A stretch of 64,000 nucleotides of DNA, taken from the NCBI GenBank assembly GCA_031288615.1, contig JAITRC010000009.1:1-64000 (forward strand). Reading direction: 5' to 3'. The DNA is from Tannerellaceae bacterium (GTDB taxonomy: Bacteria; Bacteroidota; Bacteroidia; Bacteroidales; Tannerellaceae). The position numbers and the translations under genes are program-made. Positions 44,869 to 64,000 of this stretch are shown here, one piece after another; positions within the stretch are counted from its first letter, which is position 1; each line of letters opens with the position of its first letter. Below the pieces are notes generated by a model that made no database searches, was not told the origin of the DNA, and was given only the letters and a program-made list of their open reading frames with translations.

Positions 44869-45948
44869 CTACTCTACGTTGACCACTGCTACTTCAACAC
44901 CGTCATTGAGTCGGTTTAAACCCGTAACCGCCACCTTATCCCCATCGTTCAATCCTTCCAAAATCTCATAATGGCCTCCTATCCGCCTCCCCAGTTTAAC
45001 CTCCTTGTATTCCACCTTATTTCCCTTCAACACGTACACAAATCTTTCCCCGCTCCCCGGTTGCTTGATGATAGCCCTGTCAGGTACCACCACCCGTGAC
45101 TTCGCTCCGAAAGCAAGCGTTACCCGACCAAACATACCCGGTCGTACTCGACCACCCTCATTCTTTAGCTTGATCTCCACCGGAAATGTGCGCGTCCCCT
45201 CATCAATCGTGGGGTAGATCAACCCCACCTTCCCATCGAATACCTCTTCCTCATAGACGTCAAACCGGAGTGAAACCCTCATCCCTTTCTTCACTTGCGT
45301 GAAATAACGCTCCGATACGTTTACCATCATCTTTACCGGACTAATCTCCTCAATGATATAGACCGGCAACGCGCCATTATACATGTCCCCAGAATCGTAG
45401 TTCCTCGCCGTCACTATCCCTTTGATTGGACTCAGCAGACGATTATTCGCCAACAGGTTCTTATACGTCGTCCGGCTCACCTCCAAAGCCGTATACTGTG
45501 CATCCCTCACCGACCGCGATACTCCTCCCACTTTGTACAACTCTTCTATCCTCAAAAACTCCTGCTCTACGTTTTCCAGCTGCACCTTTGCCTGCTTCAA
45601 TGCCGTAGCATCTGTCTCCGCCAGCAATTGCCCTTCCTTCACCGCATCTCCTACTTCCACCAGCAGCTTCTCTATCCGCACCGGTGCCTGAGGTGCAATC
45701 TTATTCGTCACATTCGCCGTCACATTCGCCGTCAGTTCAACCTCCTGCTCAACCTCTTGCTTGCGTACCGTCTCCACTCGAATCTTCACTCGATTGTCTA
45801 CCGCTTCCTCCGACGATTCAGCCTGCTTTTCCCCGCCACCGCAGCTCATCAACACCGCCAGCACCCACAAATACTTCGCCCCCATTAACCCTGCTCTACT
45901 CATCTCGCTCATCTTTATATTTGGTTTTGTTAACTCGTTCTTGATCAT
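44869..45948 (-). CDS. RND efflux periplasmic adaptor subunit
   Basis: A 359-residue adaptor of the membrane fusion family. A lipobox (LAVLMSCGGG) near residue 36 makes it a likely lipoprotein. Domains are the lipoyl/hairpin region VRIEKLLVEVGDAVKEGQLL, a coiled hairpin (TALKQAKVQLENVEQEFLRI), a beta-barrel with LSPIKGIVTARNY and the membrane-proximal end LGRRIGGHYEILEGLNDGDK. The true start may be at an internal Met before the signal helix. It precedes the permease gene by 83 bases and follows tolC by 33. Confidence 0.9.
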   Translation of the reverse strand: MIKNELTKPNIKMSEMSRAGLMGAKYLWVLAVLMSCGGGEKQAESSEEAVDNRVKIRVETVRKQEVEQEVELTANVTANVTNKIAPQAPVRIEKLLVEVGDAVKEGQLLAETDATALKQAKVQLENVEQEFLRIEELYKVGGVSRSVRDAQYTALEVSRTTYKNLLANNRLLSPIKGIVTARNYDSGDMYNGALPVYIIEEISPVKMMVNVSERYFTQVKKGMRVSLRFDVYEEEVFDGKVGLIYPTIDEGTRTFPVEIKLKNEGGRVRPGMFGRVTLAFGAKSRVVVPDRAIIKQPGSGERFVYVLKGNKVEYKEVKLGRRIGGHYEILEGLNDGDKVAVTGLNRLNDGVEVAVVNVE

Positions 45949-45981
45949 TATTCACGCTTGATTATTTGCCGTACTCTTCGT

Positions 45982-47484
45982 TTATCTCTTTATTTCTCCT
46001 ACTATTCCCTTTGCCTTTTCCATTTCTGCCTCTGTCACCACAAAGTCATAGATGGCCTGGTTAAAGCCCAGCTTTGCCTGTGTCAATGCCAGCTCTGCAT
46101 CGTTCAATTCCAACAGTGCACCCCCTCCCGTTTCATAACGTTTCCTGGCTATCATCCGCCCTTTCTCCGCCTGTTCCACCCCCCGACGCGCCGCCTGATA
46201 TCGCTTCACGCACGTCTCCATATTGTCCTTATACTGCTTCACCGCCAGCTTCAGGTTTCGCGCTATGTTTTCCCGCTGTATTTCCAGTTGCTGCAGCGAC
46301 ACACGTGTCTGGTTAATCTTCTGCACTCTCCCTCCTCCCTGAAATAATGGGAAGCTAAGCGACAGTGCAACTGTCGAAAACGGGTTCCATAGGTACTCCT
46401 TGAACTTAAAGTCGTTGTTCATTGCACTCCAGTTATACGCTCCGCTTAACGATACCGTCGGCAGGAAATCTGCCTTCTGCATGGATAGCGTCCGTTTAAG
46501 CATCAATCCCTGCATAGCCAACTGTCGCAGTGAACTATTGTCCTCCAGCGATGTATCCACCGCCCACAAACATCCTTCAAACAATTTATTCTCATAATCA
46601 GTTAACTTTCCTTCACACACTACCTCCACTTCCAAATCCACCCCAATCAAAACCTTCAGCTGCCACTTCGACAACACTACCGCATTGCTCGCCTGCAATA
46701 CGTTTGGCTCCACATTCCGTACGGCCACTTCCGCCCGTATCATATCATACTCCGCCACCACTCCTTGTTCATACTTGCGCACTATATCTTCGTAGTTCGC
46801 CTGCGCATGATCGTAGCTCTCTTTCAGCACTCTGTATGAATCCTCTGCCAGCATCACTCCATAAAAGGCGCGCTTCACCTGATTGACCAACTCTATCCTT
46901 GATGACCGTGCCTGCTCAACCGCCAACTCCACATCTGCCGCCGAAATTGACAGGCTCTTCCACAACGCCACATTTATCAACGGCATACCCCCCGTAAAGC
47001 CGAAGCTCCAGTTATTATCTCGACCGACACTGATCCCATCATTGCCCGAATCCTCCGCCACAGGCGTCGCTTCCATTATATTTTCCATCAACGTCCCTTG
47101 CTGATAGTCCGTCGACACTCCTTGAAAGGTTTTTTCTATCCCATTAAAGGTTGGCATCATCATGGCCGTCATGTCAAACGCCCCATCCATATACATCACC
47201 TGCTTTTTCAACGTCCTGCTGTAATCCGCACCGAAGTTCAGCTGGGGGAAAAGAGCCGCATACGCCCCCTTATGCCCGTAACGCTTCTTCTCTACCTCCT
47301 TATCCGCCACCTTCACTGTCGGGCTTTCGCTCATCCCCACCCGCAACGCATCTTCAAGCGTCAGCACAACGATCTCCGCATGATTCGCCCCCGCAAGATT
47401 GATGACGGGATGCATCATACCGATCGCTATGATCAATAGCACCTTCATCCTCACATTCACTTTGATTAACTCTTTTTTGATCAT
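45982..47484 (-). CDS. TolC-family outer-membrane factor
   Basis: About 500 residues with the two TolC repeats: TLEDALRVGMSESPTVKVAD near the start and SRIELVNQVKRAFYGVMLAE, then LELNDAELALTQAKLGFNQA. It should form the outer-membrane exit duct of the pump. The signal helix begins at an internal Met (MKVLLIIAIGMMH) 12 residues in, so ATG 47448 is an alternative start; the first dozen residues resemble those of the next gene's adaptor (MIKxELxKxN). It heads the tolC-adaptor-RND-PII operon. Confidence 0.88.
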   Translation of the reverse strand: MIKKELIKVNVRMKVLLIIAIGMMHPVINLAGANHAEIVVLTLEDALRVGMSESPTVKVADKEVEKKRYGHKGAYAALFPQLNFGADYSRTLKKQVMYMDGAFDMTAMMMPTFNGIEKTFQGVSTDYQQGTLMENIMEATPVAEDSGNDGISVGRDNNWSFGFTGGMPLINVALWKSLSISAADVELAVEQARSSRIELVNQVKRAFYGVMLAEDSYRVLKESYDHAQANYEDIVRKYEQGVVAEYDMIRAEVAVRNVEPNVLQASNAVVLSKWQLKVLIGVDLEVEVVCEGKLTDYENKLFEGCLWAVDTSLEDNSSLRQLAMQGLMLKRTLSMQKADFLPTVSLSGAYNWSAMNNDFKFKEYLWNPFSTVALSLSFPLFQGGGRVQKINQTRVSLQQLEIQRENIARNLKLAVKQYKDNMETCVKRYQAARRGVEQAEKGRMIARKRYETGGGALLELNDAELALTQAKLGFNQAIYDFVVTEAEMEKAKGIVGEIKR

Positions 47485-47662: not shown

Positions 47663-50600
47663 CTATTCCTTGTAGAAACGGAACACCTGTTGGTGAACAC
47701 ACAAGATGTAAATCCCCGAAGGAAGGTTGGAAACATGAATAGCATCGTCCGTTTTTTGCAGTAGGCGGATACGCCCCGTCATATCAAAAAGGTGAACAAG
47801 GACAGGCTCCTTCAATCCGCCGATATGAAGCACATCCTGTGCCGGAAGCGGATAAAGGAACAACTCTGAGTCGGAAGGCCCCGACAAGGCGGTAGAGCTT
47901 TTTCTGTAGAAGAAGATCGCATCCATGTCAATAGCCGTACGGGGTATTCCTGTGGAAACGAATGTAAGGATATTGACGTCGCCGGTAAAAGGCTGATCGT
48001 AGGTCAACCCTTGTTGATTAAGCAAGGATAGGGGCACTTCTATCTCATGCCACAAACCGTCACGTGGAAAATCGTAATCGGGAGAACGTCCCTCCACCGG
48101 TTCATTGCCGATAAGTAGACGAGCTTCCTGCCGTGAATCGGAGAAAGTGAAAAGGTAGAAAGTGGACGTCTTTCGACTACGTAAAGCAATATGGAACACA
48201 AAGTCGGAAGGTGCTCCCGCCATCGGGGTCATATCCACCTGTCCAAAAGCTTCCTTCAAATTATAAGCACCGCCCGACCAACCCGAAGATACTTCCGGTA
48301 CAGCCAGATTTGTCCAGTTTTCCCGCGTACCATAGCTGTTGATCCCTATTGAGTGCCCTACTTCAAGACTATTCTCCCATATCTGAAGCTGTGAAGTAAT
48401 GTTGTTGGGACGGAAATCTTTCGCTACTTTATCCTGTATCACCGCAAAAGGAGCCACAGCAAGAGAGATTACATAATAATCGTTCCCTTGCAACGAGGGG
48501 TAAGTAGCTGGTGCAGGTGGTGCGGTGATGACCGAAACCATACAAGTATCGGCAACGCCTCCACGAGCCACCTCGATTAACGCGACGCCCTCCTTCATTG
48601 CCCTGACTCTTCCGGTAGAGCTGACGGTGGCTACGGCAGCGTTTTCCGAACGCCATACGTTCGACCCTGTGCCCTTAAAGGCCGACAGATCAACTGTCAA
48701 TATTTCTTCCATTCCCGAAGAAAGGATAAGGTCTGTCTTATCCAAGCGGATGGCAGAGGGTCTGTATACGGTAACCACGCATGTGGCGCTATTCTGGCCT
48801 ATACGAGCGACGATAGTGGCCGTTCCTTCTTTCATCCCCCTCACTACGCCTTTATTATCTACCGTAGCGATGTCTGTCTGTCCACTTTCCCACATAATAT
48901 CGCCGGTGTATGCGTGGGGAGGAGTAAGAACAGGTTTCAGGGTAATGGTTTGCCCCAAAGAAATCTCGGCAGTAGTCTTCTCCAAACCGATACTTGTGGA
49001 GTAGACCGGATGACGATAAAAGTATACAGCATCCATATTGAGGAGGTCGCCCTCTTTTCCTCCTGCGGAGAAAGCCATTACATCTGTTCTTCCATCTAAG
49101 ATGGAACCGGTACGACTATCGAACAAACGATCAAAAACGGGGTGGTTCAGTGGAATATCTATATCGTGCCATTGACCATCACGGGCAAAATTGAAGAGGG
49201 GAAGCATGCCGCCTTCTCCCGCACGGTTACCAATAACAAAACGGATAGTATCGGCACAGTCGGTGAAGGTAAAGGTATAGGCACTCGCTGCCTGCGAACT
49301 CTTCAAGGCGATATGGAACGAGTAGTCCTGCCTATTCTGCATGGAAGTCCAGTCCGGGATATTGTGGTTGGAAGGCACGTTAAACGAACCTCCCGACCAG
49401 CCTTTATCGGTTACTTTTAGCTGTAGCCATTTGTCAAGGTGACCGTAACTATTCTCTCCACTTCCGCTTCCAGCATCAAAAGTTTCTCCCCAAATATAGA
49501 GTTCGTGATTATCCTTATCCGGACGCAAGTCTGCCACGTTGAAGGCTCCGGATATCGCTTCAAAAGCCCCTGCACCCATCACCAGTACAATGTAATTACT
49601 GCCATGCGAACTGTTGACAGTCTCAATACCTGTAACCGTTACTTCGCATGTCCTCGTAAAACCATTGCATGTAGCTGTGATTTGAGCCTTCCCTTCACCG
49701 ATACCCGTTACAAAACCGTCATTCACTGCTGCTATCGACGGGTTAGACGATGTCCACTGAACAAACGAGACGGCGGCTTCGGCAGGGAAAGTCTCCACCG
49801 TAAGTCGGCGCACCGACTGTTTGGGGAGAGAGAGGGTTTGGTCGCTCAAGGCTATGTCTGTGAGTGTTATAGGACGTTTGTAGAAGAACAACGCATCCAT
49901 ATCCAATATCGTTCCCTGTGTACCTCCGGCAGAGAAAGCAACCACGTTCACCGTCGGAGTAGTGATCAAAGATTCGTAGAGTGCATTGAACTCCGGCAGG
50001 GATAAGGGGATATTTATCTCATGCCACGCTCCATCGCGCACAAAGTCGTAACGCGGGGCGATGCCATCTCCATCCGGACAGTTACCAATAACGATCTTAG
50101 CCTCGTCTTTCCCGTCGGAGAAAGTGAAGGTGTAGGCACTCTCGGCTTGTGTATTTTTCAGAGCGACATGGAAGAGATATTTGTCCCGTTCATTGTAAAG
50201 ACGGGTCAAGTCAAGCCTTGTAAGTGATGTGAGGTAAGCACCTCCCGACCAGCCTTTATCTGATACCACCATGCGTACCCATTTATCGTTGTTACCGTAG
50301 CTATCCACGGTAGTACCCTCCTGACCGGTGAAAGTGGATGACCACACCTGCAATTCGTTACCGGTTTCGTTGGGACGAAAATCGTATATGACCTTGTCTT
50401 TGATTCGCGCAAGTGCATTTTCACCTAACTGCACCACGAAGTAGTTACTTCCTAAGAGGCTATTCACCGTTTCCGTAGCGGTCACCGTCACAAGGCAACT
50501 TGCGCTATAACTGCCATAAGAGGCAGTTATAGTTGTCGTTCCGACGTTAAAAGCCGACACCATTCCTCTATTCACGGTTGCTACGGCCGGATTGGACGAT

Positions 50601-53600
50601 TGCCATGTAACCCAAGCAGCAGCACCTTCCGGAAGAAGCTTAAGATCCAGCTTTCGTACCGTATGCTGCGGCAAGTTCAATGTCGGGGTAGTGAAATACA
50701 TCCCTATCATTTCCACACGCTCATAGAGGAACAAGGCATCCATGTCCAATACCGTTCCCTTCTCCCCACCAGCGGAAAAGGCCAGAAGACTGACGCCCGT
50801 ACCCGACTCTATACCCCCGAAAGGTTTGTCGAAAATGGCATCAAATGCAGGGTCACTCAACGGAATATTAAACTCTTTCCACTTTCCGTCGCGTATGAAA
50901 TTATACTTCGGAAAAACACCATCTGCATTGGCTTTCGGGCCAATAACAACGACAGCCTCTTCGGTACCGTCAGAGAAGGTAAAGGTGAAACCGGCGTTGG
51001 GTTGCGTACTCTTGAGCGCGACGTGGAAAGCATAGTTATCACGCTTAGTACGGACACTCTGCATATCTATCGTACCAAATGCCGGCGACACATGGAAAGC
51101 ACCACCCGACCAGCCTTGATCACCCACCACCAAACTTACCCATGGATCCTGCACACCGTAGCTATTCGCTCCTGCACTAGGAGAGGCAGTAAAAGTGGAC
51201 TCCCATATCATCAAGCTCATCGGCAGACTCGCTCCTTTCGGACGGAAATCGTAAACTATGCCGTTCGCGATCTCTTTTACAACGCTTTCTCCCAATGAAT
51301 AGATGTAAAAGCCTTTACCCGACAAGCCGACAGTCGGCGGACAAGGTGTTACCGTCACGAAACAAGTATCACTAAGACCAGCCACCTGGGTGACGATACG
51401 TGCTGTCCCTGCCTTGAGGGCCGAAACAAAACCATTAGTCACCGTAGCGACATCTTTATTTAAAGACTTCCAGATTATCCGGGAGGAAGCACCTATCGGT
51501 ACATTCGTTGTCAGCCGGAAGACTTGTTGTTCTTCCATAAGAAGCGTCTCTTCCGACAAAATAACACTCGTCACTTCTTCATCCTTTGCATAGAAGAAGG
51601 CTGCATCCATATCCAGTACCGTTCCCTTTACACTTCCTACCGAGAAGGCCAAAAGATTGACCTTTGCCCCGTCGAAATTCGACTCATATAAGCCTGCAAA
51701 TCGGGGATGGGTCAGCGGAATTTCTATTTCGTGCCACTGTCCATCACGCACAAAGTTGTAAGACGGAGGAATACCTTCCTCATTGGCACCGCTACCAATT
51801 ACGAAAGAGGCTGTATGATTTTCATCGGCGAAGTTCAACGTATAGGTTGTCTGCCGTGTACTTTTCAAGGCGATGTGGAAATAGTATTTGTCCCGTTCGG
51901 CGGCAACAGGTTTCAGGTTGATATCACCTGTTACTTTGAAAGCAGCCCCAGACCAGCCTTTATCAGCTACAGCCAAAGCGATCCAAGGCTCTTTCACTCC
52001 AAAACTATTTGCTGCTCCCACTAAGGTTGTTTTCCCGAAAGTGCTTTCCCATATCTGCAATCCGTTACGCCAATCTTTCACTATCGTCCGGTTAGCCTCC
52101 AACAATACATTATACGACGAAGTATCCAGAGATAACAAGTAATACTGATCCCCTTGTAAACTTTTTGTCTGTGGAAGCGATTCTACTGTGACCAGACAAG
52201 TCGCTTTTAACGAACCACATTGAGCAGTGATAGTTGTCGTCCCCGCACGAACCCCTGTGATAAAACCGTTGTTCACCGCCGCAATAGTCGAGTTCAATGA
52301 TGACCATACCACCTCTCCCTGTGCGCCTTCCGGCAACAAGACCAAGTTCGGTTGGATCACCTCCTGTTCCTTCATGGTCACAGTCTGCGGCAACTCTATA
52401 CTCGTCGCTGTTTTGCTTACTTTATAAAAGAAAAGGGCATCCATGTTCAGCACCGTCCCTGCGTCACCTCCTGCTGAGAAGGCCACAAGATTAACATTGC
52501 TCTGCGTTCCGCCAAAGGGTTCTTTGTATAAATTATCAAACTCCGGCAGACTTAGCGAAATATTTATCTCTTGCCAGAGGCCATCCCTTGCAAAATTATA
52601 TTTCGGCACCAGACCTTTCTCATTTTTCCGGTTACCTACCGCTACCTGTGCCGTATCTCCTTTTCCATCCGTGAAGGAGAAAGTATACACCGATACCGGT
52701 TGCGTACTTTTCAAAGCAATGTGGAAATAGTAGGCCTCTCTTTCGGAGCGTACTTGAGTCATATCTATAGGTGCCGATACGGCAAAGGCTCCTCCCGACC
52801 AACCTTTATCACCTACCGTCAGTCCAATCCAAGGCTCTACTGCCCCGTAACTGTTTGTTTCATTTGAAGTAGCTACGGCGTTGAACGTATTCTCCCATAT
52901 CTGTACATCACTGCTCGCACGCCAATCGCTCTTCACTTTGGCTCGTATGGAATTGAAGGTTGTTTCCCCCAAAGACAGTACTTGATAGTTACTACCATAT
53001 AAACTCTTTCCCTTCTTACCTGAAGCGATTTTCACGTAACAAGTATCGGTGCGGCCGCCGCCATACACCACAACAGGTACCGCTCCGCTTGCGGCTTTGA
53101 GACCTGTCACGAAACCATCTCTTACTCCGACAAAAGTGGGATCAAGTGATTTCCATTCCAATTCTACGAAAGCCCCTTTCGGTTCAACTTCCACACCCAA
53201 CAGTACTACATCTTGCTCTTCAATGGTTATCTGTTTTGTCGACAACTTCAGTCGTTCCAACGCAAGCTGAGGTTTGTAGAAGAAGGCTGCATCCATGTCT
53301 AATGTCGTCCCTTCTACTTTTCCGGCGGAAAAAGCCACAACCGACACTTGTTTCGAGGCCGAGCCAAATGGTGCGGCATACATCCCTGCAAACTCCGGCA
53401 GACTCATTGGAATGTCTATCTCGTGCCACTGCCCATCACGGACAAAGTCATATTTCGGCAAAATACGTTTCTCATTCGGACAGTTGCCTACTACAATGTC
53501 AGCTGTATTGACCCCGTCGGTAAATGTGAATGTATATGATGCTATTTTCTGTGTACTCTTCAAGGCAACGTGGAAAGAATAGGTGTTGCGAGCCTTGTAA

Positions 53601-56600
53601 ATAGCTTGTAAATTCACTTCCTCCGTCACCGCAAAAGCACCACCCGACCATCCTTTGTCGGTTACTTTCAAACCAATCCAAGCTTCTTCCTTTCCGTAAC
53701 TGTTCGTTCCTGTCTGTTCTGAGGCCCCGAAAGTACCTTCCCATACCTGTAACTCATTGCCGGAAGTGGCTCCCGGACGCCAATCCGACATGATGATCCT
53801 CTCAGTAGTCAATAGAGAATTGAAGGTGGTTGCACCCACTGACAACACGTAATAATGGCTTCCCCGCAAACTATTTCGTTTTGCCTTCGCCAAGACTTTC
53901 ACCGTACACGTAACCTGCATTTTGTTGCACGTCGCCGTGAGGATTGTTTCTCCTTCTTTGAAACCTGATACCAGACCCTCATTCACCGTCGCCACAGAGG
54001 CATCTTGTGATGCCCATGATATTTGACTGTATGCATTGGGAGGATCGTAAGTCACCGGTATACGCACCACGGCACCTTCCTCCACAAGAATAACAGCCGG
54101 CAGACTGATCCCTGTCGCCACTTCTTCACCCCTGTAGAAGAATACTGCATCCATATCCAATGTAGTTCCTTCTATACCGCCCGCCGAGAAGGCTACTACA
54201 TTCGCAACCTTTTGCGCACTACCAAAAGTTTCGTCGTATAAGCTTGCAAACTCCGGTAATGACAATGGGATATTCAATTCATGCCACTGTCCATCGCGTT
54301 TGAAATTGTACCTCGGCGGCGTCGAATTATCTCCCGGACGATCCCCTACAACAATTCGTGCCGTATCTTTTCCATCGGTAAAGGTAAATGTATATACCTG
54401 CTCCTGTTTTGTACTCTTCAATGCTACATGGAAGAAGTACTTGTCTCGCGCCGTACGTATATTGCGCAGATTTACCTCGTTGGCTACGGTAAAGGCTCCG
54501 CCCGACCACCCCTTATCGGCCACAATCAACTGTAACCAAGACTCCTCTATCCCATAACTATTCAAACCTGCTGCTTCCCCCGCCGTAAAGGTTTGCTCCC
54601 ATATCATCAGTTTGTTGGCAGAGGTTTTATCAGGACGCCAATCTTTCTCTACTATCCTGTCCGTCTCAATGAGTGAACCAAGCATGTACTCACCCGACAA
54701 CAATAGGTAATAATGGCTACCTTGCAAACTGTTCAACTTCGTGGCCGCTTCTACCGTCACTTGGCACGATCCTATTGCTCGCCCTTTATATATCGCCTCA
54801 ATAGTGGTCTTACCGACGTTCATCCCCGACACAAAACCGTCGTTCACCGTAGCAATAGAAGGATCTGCCGACCGCCACCGCAAGGTATCGAACGCACCTT
54901 CCGGAACAAATGTTCCTTTCATCAGCACTACATCCTGTTCCTTTATCGTAACATCCGGCAATAGATAACCTGTTGGGACAAACGCTCCTTTGTAATAAAA
55001 CACCGCATCCATCTCCAACACCGCCCCTTCATGACCACCCGCCGAAAAGGCCACAAGAGTTGATGCCGTTCCTCCATAAGGATTATCAAATAAGCGATCG
55101 AACTCCGGCAGAGAAAGCGGAATCTCTATCTCATGCCATAGCCCATCACGTTTGAAGTTATACCTTGGAAGTATACCCTCCTCCTCGCTACCGCCAATAG
55201 CAACTTGCACAGTATCTCTATCATCGGAAAAGGTAAAAGTATAGACCGTTTCCGGTTGCGTACTCTTTAAAGCTATATGGAAGTAGGCTCTCTCACGTGC
55301 TCTATACAATTCCTGAAAATCTACGACCTCATTTGTCACGAAGGCACCCCCTGACCAACCTTTGTCGGTCACCGTCATCCGTATCCATTGTCCTGGCTTT
55401 TCATAGCTGTCAATCCCGTTTGCCGCCTGAGCGGTAAACGTGCCTTCCCAAATATGCAAAGCGTTTCCTTCTCTTGTACCGGGGCGCCAGTCTTTTACAC
55501 GTATCCGTTCCTGCTGTAAAAGAGAATTTAAGACGTCCGTACCTAACTGCATGACATAATAGTTGCTGCCTGCGAGGTTATTCAAACGTACCCTTGGCGT
55601 TACAGTAATTCGACACGTATCCGTAAGCCATTGTGTGTCCGCAGCAGCTTTACAGTAAACGACAACATCAGCCTGTCCTTGACCAATTGCCGATACAACA
55701 CCGTCGCATACAGTAACAACGTCTGTATTCAATGACTTCCATTCGTATGTTACGTACGTTTCATTGGGAGATATTGTAGTCTTTAACTTTATTACGTCTT
55801 GCTCTAATAAAGTTATTGATTGTCTGTCTAACTGCAGACCGGAAAGCCTTGTCGGATTTTTATAGAAAAATACCGCATCCATATTGAGTGGAGTACCCCA
55901 TGCCCCACCTGCGGAGAAAGCCACGACATTGTTCGCCGCTTTGTTCAGCTCTTTGTCAAAAAGACCGACAAACTTCGGATGAGCCAACGGTATATTCAAT
56001 TCGTGCCACTTTCCGTCACGCACAAAGTTGTGCGAAGGCAAACTTCCATCTTCTGCTGGTCGGTCACCGATAATAACTCGCGCCGTATCTTCCCCATCCG
56101 CAAACGTAAAAGTGTACAATTCGTCCGTCTGGCTTCGCAATGCAACATGGAAATAGTAGTCTTGCCTTTCAGCATGAACAGCTCGTAAATCCAAGTTGCC
56201 CTGTACCACAAAAGCACCGCCTGACCAGCCTTTATTGCTTACCGACAATCCTATCCAAGGATCTTCGTGGCCATAACTGTTCGGACCTATAGCAGCCCCT
56301 GCAACGAATGTTTCTTCCCATATATACATTTTGTTCAGCGACTTCACACCCGGACGGAAATCCGCTGAAATACTTCTTTTTTTAGCCAACAACGTGTCGA
56401 CAGCACTCGCCCCCAAGGACAACAAGTGGTAGTGATTGCCACGGAGGCTATGCATCAATTCTGCCGATTCTACCGTCACTCGGCAAGTATCCCTCACTCC
56501 ATCCACAGAAACTTCAATCTCAGCTTCTCCCGACGACACTGCCCAAATGACCCCTTGCCGCGCTGTAGCCACATGGGGATTCAGCGAGCGCCAAACCGGC

Positions 56601-59600
56601 ACTCCTTCCGCAGTTTCAGGTTTCACTACAGCAGATAAATGGGTCGCCTCACCCACCCGCATCGTCAAAGTGTTCTGTATCTCAATAGATTCCGCTAAAA
56701 TCGCCCGCTTGTATAGGAACACCGCATCCATGTGTAGCTCATCACCTGTCACTCCTCCTGCCGAAAAGGCCATCAGGTTCGCCGGAAACGCTTCACTACC
56801 GAACAAAAACTCATACATGCCATCAAACTCCGGCAAACTCAGCGGTATATTCAATTCTTGCCATTGCCCATTACGTATGAAATTATACTTTGGCCTCGCG
56901 CCATCGGTATTTATTTCATCTCCTACCACAATCTGCGCTGTACGTATCCCGTCCGTAAATGTAAAAGTGTAAGTTGTCTGTCGCGTACTCTTTAAGGCGA
57001 TGTGGAACAGGTAATCATTCCTCTCTTCTATTGCTTTTCGCCAATCTACGGGCGTCGACACAGTGAACGCGCCGCCTGACCAGCCTTTGTCGGTCACACC
57101 GAATCGTACCCAGGATTCTTCCTGCCCAAAGCTATTTGTATCCGTCGGTGTCAAGCCTACAAAAGTATTTTCCCATACCATCAGGTTATTCTCCTGTTGT
57201 ACGCCGGGACGAAAATCTCGTGCTATAGCTCTGCGTTCATTCAGCTTATCGAAAGTAGAGTTGCCAAGTAAAAGCGGGTAATAATTGAGACCTCGCAACA
57301 CATCAACCCTCTCTCTTGGCAAAACTGTCACATCAACCGTTGTATCAACTTTCCCTGTACTTATCCATATTTTAGCTGTCCCCGCACGTAGTCCGGATAC
57401 CCAACCGTCGCGTACGATGAAAATGGATTCATCCAATGATTTCCATTGCAAAGGAGCGTATGAACTTTCCGGTAGCAAAACCACCGACATTTTTTTCACC
57501 TCCTGTTCCATCAGCGTCAGGGACTCAGGAACCAGATGTGCAGGCGGTACTCGTTTGTAGAAGAACATCGCATCCATTTCCAACACCGTTCCTTCCACCC
57601 CGCCTGCCGAGAACTCTACAAGATTTAACGGTTTATTCGGACCCGAGAGGGCTACTTCGTACAATAAGTCGAATTCCGGTAAACTCAACGGAATGTCTAA
57701 TTCATGCCATTCCCCGTCACGTGCAAAGTCATATTTCGGATACCTCCCTGACGTCCCTTCCCCATTACCTATGACGATAGTCGCCTTGCCTCCTCCTGTT
57801 TCGTCGGTATCAGTGAAAGTAAATGTATAGGTTGATGTCGGCTGGAAACTCTTCAAAGCAATATGGAAAAACCAATTTCCCCGTTCTTGACGGATCTCCC
57901 TCAAGTCTACTCCATTCTCAACGACAAAAGCACCGCCCGACCAGCCTTTATTGGCTACTTCCAATCCTACCCATCTTTCATACTCATTGAAGCTATTCGC
58001 CCCCGATACCAGAAGCGTATGGAACGTTTCACTCCATAAATCCAACTTATTATTGTTAACACCCGGACGGAAGTCTTGTATCACATTATCTTTTACCTTC
58101 TCCAGCGTAACTGCATCCAAGAGTAGGAGATGATACTGGGTACCGAACAACGGATAGGTCTCCTCTTTCGGGAGCACCTTCACGGAAACCGTCTTCACAA
58201 TCGTACCTACTTGCACCTCCAGCACCGTAACTCCCTCTTTCAGTGCAGAGACAAAGCCATCGCGCACGGTAGCTATCTCCTTGTTTCGCGACCGCCATAC
58301 CGCCGTTCCATACGAACCCACAGGCAACATCTTCACCGAGAGTTTTTGTACTTCCTGCGCTTTCATTTCCAACTGTACAGGCGATACCTCTATATCCTCC
58401 GGTGCAACAAGCTCTTTGTAGAAGAACAACGCGTCCATCTCCAACACCGTTCCTTCTTCCCCTCCTGCTGAGAAGGCCACAACGTTCAATTTCTTGCCTA
58501 CCTCTCCGAACAATTGGTCATACAACCCATTAAATTCCGGTAGATTAAGCGGGATATCCAATTCCTGCCATTCTCCGTTACGTTTGAAGTTATATTTCGG
58601 CAACAACCCATCTTCGTTGGCTTTATTACCTATCACTATTCGCGCCGTATCCGCCGAGCCATCCGTAAAAGTGAAGGTATACGCCGATATCGCTTGTCTA
58701 CTCTTCAAAGCGACATGGAAACTATGAGCCGCCCGTGCAGCGGCGAGGTCTGTTAAATCTACCTTATTCCCTATTGTAAAGGCTGCTCCCGACCAACCTT
58801 TATTACCTACTTCCAATCGTATCCACGGATGCAATTGCCCGTAGCTATTCACTCCACCCGTCTCCGAAAGGCCATTAAACGTCCCGTCCCATATATCCAA
58901 TGAATAATTGTTTGCCACATTCGGGCGCATGTCTTCTTTCAATACACCTCTTCCTTCCAGACCTCCCAACGTAGTCGCATCTATTGAGAAAACATAGTAA
59001 CGGCTACCATTCAACCCCGCCGTTTTCCGCTTTGACAGTACCTCGACAGGAATCTGCATTGACGCATTATCGGCTTGCAACTCAATAAGGGTTGTACCTT
59101 CTCCGATGGCTGAGACGATACCATCATGTACAGTAGCGACAGACTCATTTTTCGATGACCATGTTATCTTTCCATACGCGCCTTCCGGTAATAATTTCGC
59201 CGTCACTGCCACTACCGTCTGTTCTTCTACACGTATTGATGTAGGTGTAACGGCTATTGCCTCCGGTTCCTCCATCGTTTTGTAGAAAAACACCGCATCC
59301 ATGTCCAATGTTGCCCCTTGAACGCCACCTGCCGAGAAGGCCAGCAAGTCTATCGACTGACCTCCTGTACCGAAGGAACTAGTATACAATCCGTCAAATA
59401 TTGGATCACTCAATGGAATATCCATTTCATGCCATCCGCCGTCACGAGGAAAGTCATACGTCCCCCCGTCGCCGATAATTATTTGTGCCGTGCTTCTTCC
59501 ATCAGAAAAAGTAAGTGTATACGGAAGGCTATGTACACTTTTCAAGGCAATGTGGAAGAAATACTTACTTCGCACTGATTCTTTAACAATAGGGCTTAGA

Positions 59601-62600
59601 TCAATTCCTTGCGGATCGCTTACCACTAAAGATCCATCCGACCAGCTTTTATCCGTCACCGCCAAACTGACCCAATTGACATCGAAATATCCGTAACTGT
59701 CAGCACCCACTCGCCCCGTAATCTCAAAGGAACCACCTTTCACATTCAAGCGACACCCTACCGATTTGTCCGGACGCCAATCCTTAATCACCATCCTGTC
59801 GGCCAGATTTGCAAAAGCCGCATCCCCCATTGACAATACGTAATAATGGCTGCCTTTCAGGCTACCGGCTATTTCCGGACGGTTCTGTATCCCTATGTAG
59901 CACGTATCTTTAAAATCACCACACTTCGCCTCTACACCTATGTACACCGAAGAAGTAGCCTTTGCTACCAACCAATTATTTTCTTCTACCGTCAGTAAAT
60001 CGGTATTTAATGAACGCCATACTATCGGCTCTCCACTGAAAGCATCTGTCGGCAAGAAGTCTGTTCGCAACTTAAACGCCTCACCCACGTACACCCGTAC
60101 CGTATCTTCACGGATACGGAATCCTTCCATCGGTATCGGACGTTTGTAGAAAAAGATCGCATCCATACCTAATTCGTTACCCGCTCCCGAAAGGATGAAG
60201 CCGAACAAATCAACGGGGATGGAAGCAGCTATCACTTCTTCAAAGAAATCGTCAAACAAAGAGGTATCCAGATGAATATCCATTTCATGCCATTGCCCAT
60301 CACGAGCGAAGTCGTACACCGGCAGGAGACCACCCTCGCCCAACTGGTTCCCGACAACAAAACGTGCCGTATCTCCGTGCCCGTTTGCCAATTGGAATGT
60401 ATAAGAGGAGAGAGGTTTCGTACTACGAAGCGCTATATGCAAACTATACTCGCTTCGTGCTCTGGCAATATGCCTCATATCTATACCGTTCCCCACCGGT
60501 TTCATGTGGAAGGCGCCACCTGACCAAGTCTCCCCCTGTTTGGTTCTCATCCACAACCATTTTTTTTCGAGGCCGTAACTGTTAACGCCCTGCTCTTCTG
60601 AGGGCAGGAAATCCATCTTTCCTACCCAGTTATTAAGATCACAGATACCCGTACCCGGACGAAGATCCCGTTCCAAACGATCGTCCAGATAGGTAGCAGT
60701 TGTCTCATCGACAAAGATTGTTTGGTAATGGGAGCCGTAACGGCTATTCACTTTTTCTTCTCCCGTCACATGCACTACACATCTTTTTTCCAAGTTCCCC
60801 AGCGTGGCCACAATTGTTGCATCACCTGCACTCAATCCTGACACAAAACCTCCGCTCACCACCGTAGCTATCTCAGGGTTCAAGGACTTCCACTTAACCT
60901 CATGTATTTTGATTGCAGGCGTTGTAGTCGCAGTTAGTTTAGCAGCCCCCTGCACTTTTATGCTCACTTCTTGACGGTCTAAAGAAAGGCTCAACGGCTG
61001 TTCGGCTACATCGTAGAAAAAGAGTGCATCCATGTCTAATGTAGTCCAAGGCTCTCCACCGGCAAGGAATGTCAATAAATTCAAGCCGGTTCTTTCTATA
61101 TGTATAGCCTTTTTAAACATGTCGTCGAATTCCGGAAGACTGAGCGGAATCTCTATCTCATGCCATTTCCCGTCACGGACAAAATCATATTTCGGGGGTA
61201 TTCCTCCTTCTCCTTTTTTATTACCTATCACAATGGAAGCCGATTTTTCTCCATCGCTGAAAGTAAAAGTATAGGCAGACCGCTCATCTTCACTTCTCAA
61301 AGCGATGTGAAAGAAGAATAAATTTCTGCGTGCTGCCGAGGTTAACGCTGTCAAGTCCACATCTGCCGTACTCGAAGGCAAGAAGAAAGCGCCACCCGAC
61401 CAGCCTCTACTCCCCACCTGCAGTTTTATGTTGCCGCCATCTATTTTTCCATAGCTGTCCTTATCATTGTCCACATTTTCTCCCTCAATGAAAGAACTTT
61501 CCCATAGTTGGACGGAGAGAGCTTCGCGTAAGTCACGTTTGATTACACGGGAAGGGAATGTATCCATCGCTAACTGTCCAAGGGAGAGGACAGTGTAATC
61601 AATCCCCTCCAGGCTCTTTATCGTAGCACGCGGTAGTACCGTAACGGTACAGGTATCCGAGATAAACGGTTGAGAGGGTGTTGTCTGCGGTTTCTGGTAC
61701 ACCCTGACATAATCCACCAAGAATTCCTGCGGCCATATACCTTCGGCAGGTGTACCGCCCAAGTAACCCCCTACAGCCTGATTGAGGATAAGATAAAACT
61801 CTTCATCGAACGGCCATAATGTATAATTGGCATTCGTTGCCTTGCCAAAAGTGAAGAAAGGTGTAGGCATATCATCCAAATACCATTTTACAGTATCTTC
61901 ATCCCACACCAATATGACTTTATGAGCCGCCACTGCAGCACTCGAATGCATATAATACGTCCCCGACGGGCCCGCTTCGCCGGAACCCCCTGCCATGTGT
62001 ACGGTTCCTATGATTTCTGTGGGCTTGCGGCCTACGTGCTCCATGATGTCAATCTCGCCGCTGGCAGGCCACGCCCCATACACATTCTTTACGGGTAACA
62101 TCCATATCGCCGGCCATGTACCGTATCCTAAAGGCAACTTGAACGCCACCTCCACTTTCCCGTATTTCCAGCCTTGTTTCGAGCGCAAACGTGCCGAAGT
62201 GTACTCGGAGCCAAAGAAAGACTCTTTCCTTGCAGTAATTACCAGATGACCATTGTGTGTCCGGACATTCTCCGGATTAGCCATGTAGTACTGTAATTCC
62301 CCATTCCCCCATCCACCTTCTCCCACACCTACATCATAACTCCATCGTTTCTTATCGGGAAGTGAGCCGTCGGCGTCATCAAACTCATCCGACCATACCA
62401 ATACATATTCATCTTCGTTCACTGAGGAGGATTCATCTTCCTCAGGTTCATCCCCGTAGGAGACTACCAATTTGGTGGAGCCTTGCTTCAAACCGCTCAC
62501 AAAACCTTCTTCAGTGACAGTGGCCGTTGTTTGATCCAACGTTTGCCAGCGTAACAACCCATAAACATCATTCGAAAGGGCCTCTACTTGCACAACTTCC

Positions 62601-64000
62601 CCTTCAGTCACCTCTATTCCCTCCGGCAACGTGATACTTGTGATCGGGCGATACGGGCGGTAGAAAAAGACGGCATCTATACACAAGTCTGTAAACACCG
62701 TAGGGCCTGGGCTACGAGTCGTCACAAAACCCGTTATACTCAATCCTCCTTCCGGCACAATGATAGGCCTGTCAAAGAATCCCTCAAATACCGGATGTGT
62801 TAACGGTATCTCCAGTTCGTACCATTTCCCGTCGGGGGGAAAGTCTCGTATGGGCGTCTCATTTTCAGCCATCAGGGAAGTTCCCACCCAAAACCGATTC
62901 CCGATAACGATACTGCGTTCTTCCCTGCCGTTCGAGAGGATAAGACGATAAACCGCGTCCTCCGTCTTCCTTCTCATCGCAACATGGAAAACATACTCAT
63001 CGGGTTTTTTGGACAGTTCTGTCATATCTATCCTGGCGCCGTTACCCGGCAAATGAAAGGCACCGCCTCCCCAATTTGATTCTTCCGCTACTCGGAAATT
63101 CAGAAAAAGGGTTTCGCCGGAGCCTCCCCCTGCTCCATAGCTATTTGCAGGTTTTTCCGTACCATCTTTGAGGGTAAGTTTCCCGTCACCATCCAACCAA
63201 ATTTGTATTTCCGGCGTACCCGCCACCCCGGGCACTCCCGTGCGCAGATCATTCACGGTACGGTTTTCAATGGTGGAGAAATTATACCTGTCCATGAAAA
63301 TCACGTGGTAATTCGTACCGGACAGGCTGTATTGGAGAGGCCTCTCTCCCACCGTCACGCCGAATGTCGTTTTCAGTGAACTATTCGGTATGGACAACTC
63401 TACTTCCGCTTCACCTGCTTGATACGCCGTCAGCACACCGCCGTTACGCACAGATACTACCGGTTGTTGCCCGAACTTCGGCTCCGACGTGACCCTCCAT
63501 ATCCATTTGTCATCCGGTAGATAACCGGCGTATGGCTTGAAAGAGGGAACCGCCCGTATTACCTCCAACGGTAGCAATGTGGTATCCATAAAGGCAAATG
63601 TGACGGCTGTCGGTACTTTTCTCGGACAATAGAAGAAGATTGCATCCATTTCCATCTTACCGCCTGCCTCCCCCAGACGGAAGAAAGAAAGCAAGTCGAA
63701 ACCCTTTGCATTGTCCATCACTTGCCCATATAGGCCTTCACCACCCTGCAACAACAATAATTCGGAAAGAGGTATTTCTACTTCATGCCAAACTCCGTCA
63801 TGAGGAAAGTCACGAATAGGGAATAGATCTTCGTACCACGTATTTCCTATCACAAAATGACACGTACGTGTCCCATCGGTAAGTGAGAATTTGTAGGAAA
63901 CGACCTTTTCTGTCGTTTTCAGGGCAATATGGAACACATAATCTTCCTTATGCGCAACCATTTCCCTCAGATCAATGGGCACGCCTTTACCTGTGGCGAA
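47663..64000 (-). CDS. Giant T9SS-secreted Ig-like repeat protein with embedded GH16 domain (5' end outside window)
   Basis: The frame is open at the right edge and encodes at least 5,445 residues. It is an array of 18 modules, the first cut by the edge: a roughly 200-residue beta-rich domain (conserved LxGSxYYV, WSGGAF, FHIALKS, YTFTFTDG, DGQWHE, IPLSLPEF and MDAxFFYK) alternating with one bacterial Ig-like Big_2 domain (WKSLN...VATV...GFVSG). A GH16 glycanase with the catalytic ExDxxE (GEIDIMEHV) and WPAIWMLP sits between the second and third copies, and two Big_2 domains precede the last copy. The C-terminus is a T9SS type A sorting domain (LYPLPAQDVLHI, DMTGRI, LPSGIYIL). Expected role: exported surface or secreted protein binding and cutting a beta-glucan-type polysaccharide. 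The modules are divergent, not recent copies. Confidence 0.9.
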   Translation of the reverse strand, partial: FATGKGVPIDLREMVAHKEDYVFHIALKTTEKVVSYKFSLTDGTRTCHFVIGNTWYEDLFPIRDFPHDGVWHEVEIPLSELLLLQGGEGLYGQVMDNAKGFDLLSFFRLGEAGGKMEMDAIFFYCPRKVPTAVTFAFMDTTLLPLEVIRAVPSFKPYAGYLPDDKWIWRVTSEPKFGQQPVVSVRNGGVLTAYQAGEAEVELSIPNSSLKTTFGVTVGERPLQYSLSGTNYHVIFMDRYNFSTIENRTVNDLRTGVPGVAGTPEIQIWLDGDGKLTLKDGTEKPANSYGAGGGSGETLFLNFRVAEESNWGGGAFHLPGNGARIDMTELSKKPDEYVFHVAMRRKTEDAVYRLILSNGREERSIVIGNRFWVGTSLMAENETPIRDFPPDGKWYELEIPLTHPVFEGFFDRPIIVPEGGLSITGFVTTRSPGPTVFTDLCIDAVFFYRPYRPITSITLPEGIEVTEGEVVQVEALSNDVYGLLRWQTLDQTTATVTEEGFVSGLKQGSTKLVVSYGDEPEEDESSSVNEDEYVLVWSDEFDDADGSLPDKKRWSYDVGVGEGGWGNGELQYYMANPENVRTHNGHLVITARKESFFGSEYTSARLRSKQGWKYGKVEVAFKLPLGYGTWPAIWMLPVKNVYGAWPASGEIDIMEHVGRKPTEIIGTVHMAGGSGEAGPSGTYYMHSSAAVAAHKVILVWDEDTVKWYLDDMPTPFFTFGKATNANYTLWPFDEEFYLILNQAVGGYLGGTPAEGIWPQEFLVDYVRVYQKPQTTPSQPFISDTCTVTVLPRATIKSLEGIDYTVLSLGQLAMDTFPSRVIKRDLREALSVQLWESSFIEGENVDNDKDSYGKIDGGNIKLQVGSRGWSGGAFFLPSSTADVDLTALTSAARRNLFFFHIALRSEDERSAYTFTFSDGEKSASIVIGNKKGEGGIPPKYDFVRDGKWHEIEIPLSLPEFDDMFKKAIHIERTGLNLLTFLAGGEPWTTLDMDALFFYDVAEQPLSLSLDRQEVSIKVQGAAKLTATTTPAIKIHEVKWKSLNPEIATVVSGGFVSGLSAGDATIVATLGNLEKRCVVHVTGEEKVNSRYGSHYQTIFVDETTATYLDDRLERDLRPGTGICDLNNWVGKMDFLPSEEQGVNSYGLEKKWLWMRTKQGETWSGGAFHMKPVGNGIDMRHIARARSEYSLHIALRSTKPLSSYTFQLANGHGDTARFVVGNQLGEGGLLPVYDFARDGQWHEMDIHLDTSLFDDFFEEVIAASIPVDLFGFILSGAGNELGMDAIFFYKRPIPMEGFRIREDTVRVYVGEAFKLRTDFLPTDAFSGEPIVWRSLNTDLLTVEENNWLVAKATSSVYIGVEAKCGDFKDTCYIGIQNRPEIAGSLKGSHYYVLSMGDAAFANLADRMVIKDWRPDKSVGCRLNVKGGSFEITGRVGADSYGYFDVNWVSLAVTDKSWSDGSLVVSDPQGIDLSPIVKESVRSKYFFHIALKSVHSLPYTLTFSDGRSTAQIIIGDGGTYDFPRDGGWHEMDIPLSDPIFDGLYTSSFGTGGQSIDLLAFSAGGVQGATLDMDAVFFYKTMEEPEAIAVTPTSIRVEEQTVVAVTAKLLPEGAYGKITWSSKNESVATVHDGIVSAIGEGTTLIELQADNASMQIPVEVLSKRKTAGLNGSRYYVFSIDATTLGGLEGRGVLKEDMRPNVANNYSLDIWDGTFNGLSETGGVNSYGQLHPWIRLEVGNKGWSGAAFTIGNKVDLTDLAAARAAHSFHVALKSRQAISAYTFTFTDGSADTARIVIGNKANEDGLLPKYNFKRNGEWQELDIPLNLPEFNGLYDQLFGEVGKKLNVVAFSAGGEEGTVLEMDALFFYKELVAPEDIEVSPVQLEMKAQEVQKLSVKMLPVGSYGTAVWRSRNKEIATVRDGFVSALKEGVTVLEVQVGTIVKTVSVKVLPKEETYPLFGTQYHLLLLDAVTLEKVKDNVIQDFRPGVNNNKLDLWSETFHTLLVSGANSFNEYERWVGLEVANKGWSGGAFVVENGVDLREIRQERGNWFFHIALKSFQPTSTYTFTFTDTDETGGGKATIVIGNGEGTSGRYPKYDFARDGEWHELDIPLSLPEFDLLYEVALSGPNKPLNLVEFSAGGVEGTVLEMDAMFFYKRVPPAHLVPESLTLMEQEVKKMSVVLLPESSYAPLQWKSLDESIFIVRDGWVSGLRAGTAKIWISTGKVDTTVDVTVLPRERVDVLRGLNYYPLLLGNSTFDKLNERRAIARDFRPGVQQENNLMVWENTFVGLTPTDTNSFGQEESWVRFGVTDKGWSGGAFTVSTPVDWRKAIEERNDYLFHIALKSTRQTTYTFTFTDGIRTAQIVVGDEINTDGARPKYNFIRNGQWQELNIPLSLPEFDGMYEFLFGSEAFPANLMAFSAGGVTGDELHMDAVFLYKRAILAESIEIQNTLTMRVGEATHLSAVVKPETAEGVPVWRSLNPHVATARQGVIWAVSSGEAEIEVSVDGVRDTCRVTVESAELMHSLRGNHYHLLSLGASAVDTLLAKKRSISADFRPGVKSLNKMYIWEETFVAGAAIGPNSYGHEDPWIGLSVSNKGWSGGAFVVQGNLDLRAVHAERQDYYFHVALRSQTDELYTFTFADGEDTARVIIGDRPAEDGSLPSHNFVRDGKWHELNIPLAHPKFVGLFDKELNKAANNVVAFSAGGAWGTPLNMDAVFFYKNPTRLSGLQLDRQSITLLEQDVIKLKTTISPNETYVTYEWKSLNTDVVTVCDGVVSAIGQGQADVVVYCKAAADTQWLTDTCRITVTPRVRLNNLAGSNYYVMQLGTDVLNSLLQQERIRVKDWRPGTREGNALHIWEGTFTAQAANGIDSYEKPGQWIRMTVTDKGWSGGAFVTNEVVDFQELYRARERAYFHIALKSTQPETVYTFTFSDDRDTVQVAIGGSEEEGILPRYNFKRDGLWHEIEIPLSLPEFDRLFDNPYGGTASTLVAFSAGGHEGAVLEMDAVFYYKGAFVPTGYLLPDVTIKEQDVVLMKGTFVPEGAFDTLRWRSADPSIATVNDGFVSGMNVGKTTIEAIYKGRAIGSCQVTVEAATKLNSLQGSHYYLLLSGEYMLGSLIETDRIVEKDWRPDKTSANKLMIWEQTFTAGEAAGLNSYGIEESWLQLIVADKGWSGGAFTVANEVNLRNIRTARDKYFFHVALKSTKQEQVYTFTFTDGKDTARIVVGDRPGDNSTPPRYNFKRDGQWHELNIPLSLPEFASLYDETFGSAQKVANVVAFSAGGIEGTTLDMDAVFFYRGEEVATGISLPAVILVEEGAVVRIPVTYDPPNAYSQISWASQDASVATVNEGLVSGFKEGETILTATCNKMQVTCTVKVLAKAKRNSLRGSHYYVLSVGATTFNSLLTTERIIMSDWRPGATSGNELQVWEGTFGASEQTGTNSYGKEEAWIGLKVTDKGWSGGAFAVTEEVNLQAIYKARNTYSFHVALKSTQKIASYTFTFTDGVNTADIVVGNCPNEKRILPKYDFVRDGQWHEIDIPMSLPEFAGMYAAPFGSASKQVSVVAFSAGKVEGTTLDMDAAFFYKPQLALERLKLSTKQITIEEQDVVLLGVEVEPKGAFVELEWKSLDPTFVGVRDGFVTGLKAASGAVPVVVYGGGRTDTCYVKIASGKKGKSLYGSNYQVLSLGETTFNSIRAKVKSDWRASSDVQIWENTFNAVATSNETNSYGAVEPWIGLTVGDKGWSGGAFAVSAPIDMTQVRSEREAYYFHIALKSTQPVSVYTFSFTDGKGDTAQVAVGNRKNEKGLVPKYNFARDGLWQEINISLSLPEFDNLYKEPFGGTQSNVNLVAFSAGGDAGTVLNMDALFFYKVSKTATSIELPQTVTMKEQEVIQPNLVLLPEGAQGEVVWSSLNSTIAAVNNGFITGVRAGTTTITAQCGSLKATCLVTVESLPQTKSLQGDQYYLLSLDTSSYNVLLEANRTIVKDWRNGLQIWESTFGKTTLVGAANSFGVKEPWIALAVADKGWSGAAFKVTGDINLKPVAAERDKYYFHIALKSTRQTTYTLNFADENHTASFVIGSGANEEGIPPSYNFVRDGQWHEIEIPLTHPRFAGLYESNFDGAKVNLLAFSVGSVKGTVLDMDAAFFYAKDEEVTSVILSEETLLMEEQQVFRLTTNVPIGASSRIIWKSLNKDVATVTNGFVSALKAGTARIVTQVAGLSDTCFVTVTPCPPTVGLSGKGFYIYSLGESVVKEIANGIVYDFRPKGASLPMSLMIWESTFTASPSAGANSYGVQDPWVSLVVGDQGWSGGAFHVSPAFGTIDMQSVRTKRDNYAFHVALKSTQPNAGFTFTFSDGTEEAVVVIGPKANADGVFPKYNFIRDGKWKEFNIPLSDPAFDAIFDKPFGGIESGTGVSLLAFSAGGEKGTVLDMDALFLYERVEMIGMYFTTPTLNLPQHTVRKLDLKLLPEGAAAWVTWQSSNPAVATVNRGMVSAFNVGTTTITASYGSYSASCLVTVTATETVNSLLGSNYFVVQLGENALARIKDKVIYDFRPNETGNELQVWSSTFTGQEGTTVDSYGNNDKWVRMVVSDKGWSGGAYLTSLTRLDLTRLYNERDKYLFHVALKNTQAESAYTFTFSDGKDEAKIVIGNCPDGDGIAPRYDFVRDGAWHEINIPLSLPEFNALYESLITTPTVNVVAFSAGGTQGTILDMDALFFYKRPITLTDIALSDQTLSLPKQSVRRLTVETFPAEAAVSFVQWTSSNPSIAAVNDGFVTGIGEGKAQITATCNGFTRTCEVTVTGIETVNSSHGSNYIVLVMGAGAFEAISGAFNVADLRPDKDNHELYIWGETFDAGSGSGENSYGHLDKWLQLKVTDKGWSGGSFNVPSNHNIPDWTSMQNRQDYSFHIALKSSQAASAYTFTFTDCADTIRFVIGNRAGEGGMLPLFNFARDGQWHDIDIPLNHPVFDRLFDSRTGSILDGRTDVMAFSAGGKEGDLLNMDAVYFYRHPVYSTSIGLEKTTAEISLGQTITLKPVLTPPHAYTGDIMWESGQTDIATVDNKGVVRGMKEGTATIVARIGQNSATCVVTVYRPSAIRLDKTDLILSSGMEEILTVDLSAFKGTGSNVWRSENAAVATVSSTGRVRAMKEGVALIEVARGGVADTCMVSVITAPPAPATYPSLQGNDYYVISLAVAPFAVIQDKVAKDFRPNNITSQLQIWENSLEVGHSIGINSYGTRENWTNLAVPEVSSGWSGGAYNLKEAFGQVDMTPMAGAPSDFVFHIALRSRKTSTFYLFTFSDSRQEARLLIGNEPVEGRSPDYDFPRDGLWHEIEVPLSLLNQQGLTYDQPFTGDVNILTFVSTGIPRTAIDMDAIFFYRKSSTALSGPSDSELFLYPLPAQDVLHIGGLKEPVLVHLFDMTGRIRLLQKTDDAIHVSNLPSGIYILCVHQQVFRFYKE
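47910..64000 (-). repeat. Array of 18 WSGGAF modules in the giant gene
   Basis: The conserved MDAxFFY end of each module lies at about 47.92, 49.03, 49.89, 50.73, 51.61, 52.44, 53.29, 54.15, 55.01, 55.88, 56.72, 57.57, 58.43, 59.30, 60.16, 61.03, 62.67 and 63.64 kb. Regular spacing is 0.83-0.87 kb. The exceptions are 1.1 kb before the last module (extra Big_2), 1.64 kb around the GH16 domain and 0.97 kb before the second. Confidence 0.85.
61690..62410 (-). other. GH16 domain inside the giant gene
   Basis: About 240 residues from LVWSDEFDDADG to DYVRVYQKPQ. The catalytic motif GEIDIMEH (at about 62.04-62.06 kb), the preceding WPAIWMLP and the late FYLILNQAVGG are those of the beta-1,3/1,3-1,4-glucanase branch. 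It is complete, so enzymatically plausible. Confidence 0.88.

Follow-up and report, generated by a model that had tools for sequence, protein, structure and literature searches.

A 64,000-nucleotide stretch of DNA from a Tannerellaceae bacterium (assembly GCA_031288615.1, contig JAITRC010000009.1, positions 1 to 64,000), here called the window, ends in an open reading frame for a giant protein. The protein carries a familiar bacterial device for sugar capture to an extreme: several thousand residues in which many predicted sugar-binding units are strung together with one enzyme, a catalytic domain of glycoside hydrolase family 16 (GH16). The reading that we favor, with a probability of roughly 0.7, is that the giant is a polyvalent beta-1,3-glucan binder with one GH16 endo-glucanase, exported by the type IX secretion system (T9SS) and either held on the surface or released. 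The export signal and the enzyme family rest on tested features, and the ligand on locus context and fold. A literature search over titles and the beginnings of abstracts of open-licence papers found no report of such a giant protein.

The Giant Gene, Its Modules and Its Relatives

The frame runs for 5,445 codons with no internal stop and continues at its 5′ end beyond the window edge, which bears out the initial annotation of a single open frame of at least that length. The protein database holds the window's own protein with 423 more residues (P0006), from a contig of 65,534 bases. The same gene is present, complete at both ends, in the Tannerellaceae metagenome-assembled genome (MAG) Roe453_bin44 (locus L001 of genome G001, C42:88155-111119). 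There it is 7,655 codons long and encodes 21 standard modules plus one or two that have diverged, with 78.7% identity over the part in the window. Three further relatives, known from protein records alone, are single proteins of 6,946-7,634 residues. The protein search returned nine proteins, five of them with modules: P0006 (the window), P0007, P0008 (the G001 protein), P0009 and P0010. P0011-P0014 had no module by hidden Markov model (HMM) and were set aside. An interrupted frame was looked for in the relatives seen, and none was found. Among 123 genomes of the family, modules were found only in G001. For P0008, leader included, a mass of 844 kDa and an isoelectric point of 5.0 are predicted.

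Cutting the frame into units yielded the 18 copies of a beta-rich module of about 200 residues that had been annotated, the first of them truncated, usually spaced 278-294 residues apart (Table 1). The signatures WSGGAF, FHIALKS and MDAxFFYK, described earlier as invariant, occur exactly in only 10, 7 and 8 places in the frame; what is invariant across the 17 whole copies is a set of 14 alignment columns. The rule of one Big_2 domain after each module has three exceptions: the GH16 domain interrupts the second Big_2, a pair of Big_2 domains follows the 17th module, and the 18th leads on to the T9SS tail.

Table 1. Parts of the giant gene in the window; modules are numbered from the GH16 domain.
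Feature	Position	Strand	Remarks
Giant gene	47663..64000	-	5′ end outside window; protein record shows at least 5,868 codons; relative's frame 7,655 codons
Module -2	63626..64000	-	truncated by window edge
Module -1	62657..63325	-	
Big_2 split by GH16, first part	62450..62668	-	profile positions 1-75
GH16 laminarinase-type catalytic domain	61691..62416	-	motif GEIDIMEH; nested in Big_2
Big_2 split by GH16, last part	61604..61663	-	profile positions 76-95
Module +1	61010..61612	-	
Module +2	60143..60739	-	
Module +3	59279..59860	-	
Module +4	58415..59014	-	
Module +5	57554..58150	-	
Module +6	56708..57298	-	
Module +7	55859..56446	-	
Module +8	54989..55576	-	
Module +9	54131..54727	-	
Module +10	53273..53869	-	copy modelled by AlphaFold2
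Module +11	52421..53002	-	
Module +12	51587..52159	-	
Module +13	50720..51325	-	
Module +14	49877..50458	-	
Module +15	49013..49609	-	then two Big_2 domains at about 48494-49012
Module +16	47903..48493	-	last
T9SS C-terminal sorting domain (Por_Secre_tail)	47687..47857	-	type A

A GH16 Domain Nested in an Ig-like Spacer

The enzyme domain occupies frame residues 529-770 and matches PF00722 at 72.5 bits against a cut-off of 22 (E 3.9e-20). The laminarinase 3ILN aligns to it over residues 3-240 of 247 (E 2.6e-57) with the catalytic motif in register. In GH16, that motif is defined as E-x-D-x(x)-E, and it appears as GEIDIMEH in all five giants. The predicted activity is that of an endo-beta-1,3-glucanase.

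Its position was mapped with a linker profile built from 89 other inter-module linkers, those outside 61-129 residues having been removed by a length filter. Profile positions 1-75 or 1-76 lie before the GH16 domain and 76-95 after it (76-96 in P0010, 71-95 in P0009); the second pieces are short, with E 4.4e-5 to 0.006 in the five-sequence search. Since the profile is split at the same point in all five giants, we take GH16 to be nested inside the second Big_2, apparently in a loop ahead of what should be the last strand of the Ig-like spacer. This nesting is a clear-cut example of a spacer of that type housing a catalytic domain, and it makes the protein an enzyme-bearing binder rather than the bare fibre first envisaged.

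We do not claim that the giant arose by fusion of two adjacent locus genes, a module lipoprotein and a Big_2-GH16 protein, because its GH16 has better scores with other GH16 proteins than with the GH16 of module loci. It matches P0017, another GH16 protein, at 242 bits and 50% identity (with a query that also contained the module), and the best module-locus GH16 outside L001, that of L008, at 192 bits, about the score of 3ILN. Among the 120 listed of 3,998 GH16 matches, the module HMM found no mid-size protein joining module and GH16. Among the 46 loci described below, the two share a gene only in L001, the giant, and in L046, where a Photobacterium protein (L046:106-2382) carries GH16, Exop_C-like, module and F5/8C domains.

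Export

The C-terminal sorting domain passes both available thresholds (PF18962, 32.3 bits against 27; TIGR04183, 27.5 against 23), so the T9SS tail suspected at the outset is confirmed. A hydrophobic N-terminal leader can be read by eye in P0008 and P0009; the N-terminus of the window copy lies beyond the window. SprA is present in G001, and a T9SS plug protein gene lies in the window at 1218-2468. Of the T9SS tails in G001, 15 of the 19 listed are over the TIGR04183 cut-off and 2 of the 3 listed are over that of PF18962. Together, these features suggest export through the T9SS and a probable location on the surface or in the medium. Upstream of the giant in the relative, a PorZ-type T9SS domain shares an open frame with a Ham1-type domain (L058:10026-13001).

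Age of the Array

Module counts are of matches above 100 bits, and four weaker ones were dropped (an N-terminal piece in each of P0007, P0008 and P0009, and a split piece in P0009). On this basis, there are five modules before GH16 in P0007-P0010 and three in the truncated P0006, and after it 16 in P0006-P0009 and 17 in P0010, which seems truncated at its N-terminus. P0007-P0009 have one divergent module further ahead (profile match of 96.4% over 190 columns) and a probable second, much enlarged one that matches in pieces (52.7%). A complete giant has 21 modules for sure, likely 22 and possibly 23.

Identity averages 37-40% between modules of one array and 50-81% between position-matched modules of different giants, with values for P0010 that are too low because its extra copy (at +14) shifts three positions. 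Once that copy is allowed for, 398 of 404 best matches in another giant are to the corresponding position (376 of 404 before), and all six exceptions have P0010 as the target. These position-matched best hits indicate that the array predates the split of these species; it is nearly fixed in number and not a freely expanding repeat. The earlier view of an old array of diverged copies with its repeat number held is borne out by this near-fixed order and number between species. The giant also shows the extent to which one binding unit can multiply.

Assemblers easily go wrong on tandem repeats, and the giants with given NCBI names come from MAGs; an assembly artefact or pseudogene, with false joins or with repeats collapsed or expanded, had to be considered. 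We reject misassembly, and hold the whole explanation to be scarcely credible, on account of the shared module order and the same nested GH16 in five proteins, copies too diverged to confuse an assembler, and a dN/dS of 0.151 between the window and G001 (Nei-Gojobori, 5,437 codons; approximate, given the high dS of 0.79 overall and 1.13 in GH16). Nor is the array a product of chance, since 21 HMM matches fall within one open frame of G001 DNA and three more relatives exist as single proteins.

Fold and Family of the Module

The structure prediction proposed as a check was made on module +10. The AlphaFold2 model is a confident beta-sandwich of the carbohydrate-binding type (predicted local distance difference test, pLDDT, 95.6). 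The carbohydrate-binding module (CBM) families CBM30 and CBM11, ExoP domain X (Exop_C, PDB 3F95/3UT0) and the N-terminal domains of beta-agarases have the same kind of sandwich and are its structural matches, the best alignments being at about 10-13% identity; the comparison covers the CBM families listed by VIA-align.

Sequence comparisons give the module no name. Pfam, run on pieces covering seven of the 18 modules (copies 1-4, 13, 17 and 18), returned Big_2 and the terminal Por_Secre_tail, with no family over cut-off in the modules themselves. For one further copy, NCBIfam gave no match and Pfam one at chance level, and comparing the module with the sequences of solved structures yielded nothing significant. 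The initial annotation recognised no named family, which stands as far as these cut-offs go; the module is no orphan, having single-module relatives in other Bacteroidota. A confident match to a non-carbohydrate family was looked for by Pfam, in the seven modules and 57 family members, and by structure search, and none was found. The module shares its fold with Exop_C (PF18559), which has no direct profile match in the seven giant modules scanned. It matches 6 of the 57 family members at E up to 0.1, one three-module protein over cut-off (see below), and in 99 genomes of the order only once, below cut-off; the sequence link runs through an intermediate subfamily. CBM_11 matches 2 of the 57 (best E 0.011), with a PDB profile match to CBM11 at E 0.3. 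Membership in SGBP_B_XBD (PF18329) was considered and rejected: hhalign gave a probability of 60% over 69 columns (A2) and of 7% over 14 columns (A1), and the Pfam model matches 6 of the 57 members at E up to 0.1 (best 8.1e-4).

The giant copies retain a common core. We took the 19 columns whose conservation among 43 non-giant sequences reaches at least 90% and scored them over 104 giant modules: W76, H102, G130, W150 and D195 are kept in 103-104, and W45, G78, F144, G148, P156 and A196 in 99-102. This bears on whether the repeats are spacers only, which would lengthen a stalk and hold the enzyme at a distance from the cell. In favor of that view, a structural role is common for Big_2 domains. 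BuGH16, too, is reported to have PFAM 13004 domains that bound no polysaccharide (PMC7157763). The CBM-type predicted fold and the retention of W45, W76, H102, W150 and D195 argue otherwise, as does the occurrence of a single copy with Big_2 as the post-SusD protein of glucan-type loci, where a mere spacer has no evident role, and we consider the spacer explanation very improbable. The carbohydrate binding suggested in the initial annotation remains a prediction that the fold supports.

Single-Module Relatives and Their Loci

Genome contigs were scanned with one peptide pattern, which defines the sample: 46 loci, relatives without the pattern falling outside it. Genes were called by a longest-open-reading-frame rule, and SusC, SusD, GH16, GH128 and GH3 were labelled by phmmer from L012 and window seeds, the L012 genes having first been named by Pfam (we take Glyco_hydro_cc to be GH128). 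Excluded from the count were the giant (L001), loci with a module gene of at least 430 residues (L017, L030, L032, L037, L039, L041, L043, L044 and L046), the long second gene of L015, and L022 and L026, where the module gene was lost by the gene caller.

In the 34 loci that were left, SusD lies directly upstream of 24 of 36 single-module genes (12 have it elsewhere or not at all), and GH16 lies directly downstream of 31 of 35; 23 have both flanks. GH16 makes up 76 of the 466 genes called in those loci. The locus of 25 of the 36 has a GH128, and L002 and L019 have none of these labelled genes. In all 15 N-termini read by eye, the leader ends in a lipobox-like Cys after S, A or G. This setting suggests beta-1,3-glucan as the module ligand. 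It resembles the characterised B. uniformis locus of SusC, SusD, SGBP-B (a surface glycan-binding protein, SGBP), GH16_3, GH158 and GH3, whose BuSGBP-B is reported to bind laminarins, yeast beta-glucan and, more weakly, mixed-linkage glucan (PMC7157763). A rumen beta-1,3-glucan locus is likewise described as having a post-SusD protein of unknown function, "likely an SGBP-B" (PMC11351036). A module that neither Pfam nor NCBIfam names is thereby tied to a testable ligand in some thirty loci, mostly of Bacteroidota.

The sample also holds departures from this pattern. In L015 (17907-19895) and L044 (8681-10681), genes of about 660 codons directly after the GH16 gene encode three tandem copies of a shorter module subfamily, and the L044 protein is the one that matches Exop_C over cut-off. 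A single-module gene without SusD or GH16 neighbours occurs in a record named Verrucomicrobia (L002), which could be a binning error or a transfer. Longer module genes include four from Bacteroidales or Bacteroidia MAGs (L030, L032, L039 and L041) in which the module is fused to BspA-type leucine-rich repeats with no labelled glucan genes adjoining; the module is therefore not confined to one use.

Comparison with Known Systems

By operon place (SusC, SusD, X, GH16, ..., GH3) and domain layout, many single-module relatives resemble the BuSGBP-B type described in PMC7157763, with a lipobox-like leader, an Ig-like and a second domain, and beta-1,3-glucan as the expected ligand. The giant differs in having many copies, its own GH16 and no SusCD locus; we do not file it as an SGBP-B because its neighbours are not SusD and a T9SS tail takes the place of the lipoprotein leader. 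CHU_1279, an SGBP-B-like bimodular cellulose binder, is like the giant a Bacteroidota surface protein of CBM-like domains, and is set apart by its description: two domains, cellulose, and an abstract that mentions no enzyme domain (PMC12016534). The catalytic domain and motif are common to the giant and GH16 laminarinases such as 3ILN and the T9SS-tailed GH16 proteins; many of the 120 listed relatives also have Por_Secre_tail. The giant is several times longer than those 120 (under 1,000 residues by the length limits of the search), and differs in the nesting of GH16 within Big_2 and in CBM-like units on both sides. In length and export, we liken it to SprB, a very long repetitive T9SS-exported gliding adhesin that is not known to have a catalytic domain or CBM-type modules.

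Proposed Function and the Evidence Weighed

In the favored reading, a Sec leader and then the T9SS would export the giant to the surface or the medium. Some 23 CBM-like beta-sandwich modules on Big_2 spacers would form a long, perhaps filamentous, chain that grips beta-1,3-glucan with an avidity expected to come from their number. The single GH16, held in its spacer loop about a third of the way along, would cut the gripped glucan, and the products might be taken up by other systems and serve in nutrition. The module would be the binding domain of the post-SusD lipoprotein of beta-1,3-glucan-type loci, multiplied on an exported scaffold. One could go further and imagine a one-chain glucan-capture machine, its modules specialised by position into an ordered ladder along beta-1,3-glucan (on the surface of a termite-gut fungus or protist, for example) that feeds an Ig-clamped laminarinase, one polypeptide replacing the binding protein and enzyme of a locus; that elaboration we hold to be quite improbable.

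Several observations weigh against the glucan reading. The genes around the giant itself do not form a glucan locus: an RND (resistance-nodulation-division) efflux operon lies downstream, and in the relative TonB-receptor-like, DUF2520, MurB and PorZ-type genes lie upstream. G001 has no GH128-type match and no GH16 besides the giant's own. The locus does not fix the ligand, since syntenic SGBPs are reported to vary considerably in specificity and BuSGBP-B also binds mixed-linkage glucan (PMC7157763). Some fold matches of the module are proteins that do not bind sugars. At 37-40% identity within an array, modules could have drifted to other ligands, and some conserved columns are retained less well in the 104 giant modules (R146 in 84; E152 in 83; V71 in 79; N58 in 76; G189 in 74; K106 in 70, with R in 32; G56 in 49; D14 in 35). 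Finally, a second AlphaFold2 model, of a module with the split Big_2 and GH16, had a mean pLDDT of 64.2, good in GH16 and poor in the rest; it is not used as evidence.

The missing glucan neighbourhood also speaks for a different account, in which the giant is mainly an adhesin whose modules bind several different glycans or the surface of a host, protist or fungus, with GH16 in a minor role or serving cell release. One enzyme against some 23 modules fits this, as do the module's presence in BspA-type proteins without a Pfam enzyme domain and the low within-array but high positional identity, which would be expected if each position had a distinct job. We nevertheless regard it as unlikely: the GH16/SusD locus is the commonest setting of single-module genes in the sample, and the GH16 domain with its motif is kept in all five giants and has the lowest dN/dS of the parts measured, with its dS near saturation.

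Genomic Neighbourhood and Host

The efflux operon directly after the giant (41633-47484, same strand) consists of an outer membrane channel, an HlyD-type adaptor and an AcrB-type pump, and its order is kept in the relative. From 32.5 to 64 kb, the window is collinear with the fetched part of the G001 contig at 78-85% DNA identity, from which we infer that it comes from a sister species of Roe453_bin44, a MAG of sample Roe453. The source is a gut bacterium and probably a relative of termite symbionts. Bacteroidota MAGs from lower termites, Tannerellaceae included, are reported to have more GH30, GH16 and GH116 (PMC11481507). If the host assignment is right, beta-1,3-glucan would matter to a Tannerellaceae lineage of the lower-termite gut. 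G001 has nine SusD matches and four GH3 matches, two of the latter being neighbouring pieces and one having an internal stop. Elsewhere in the window, positions 28672-30171 encode a protein with a lamin-tail domain, here in a bacterium.
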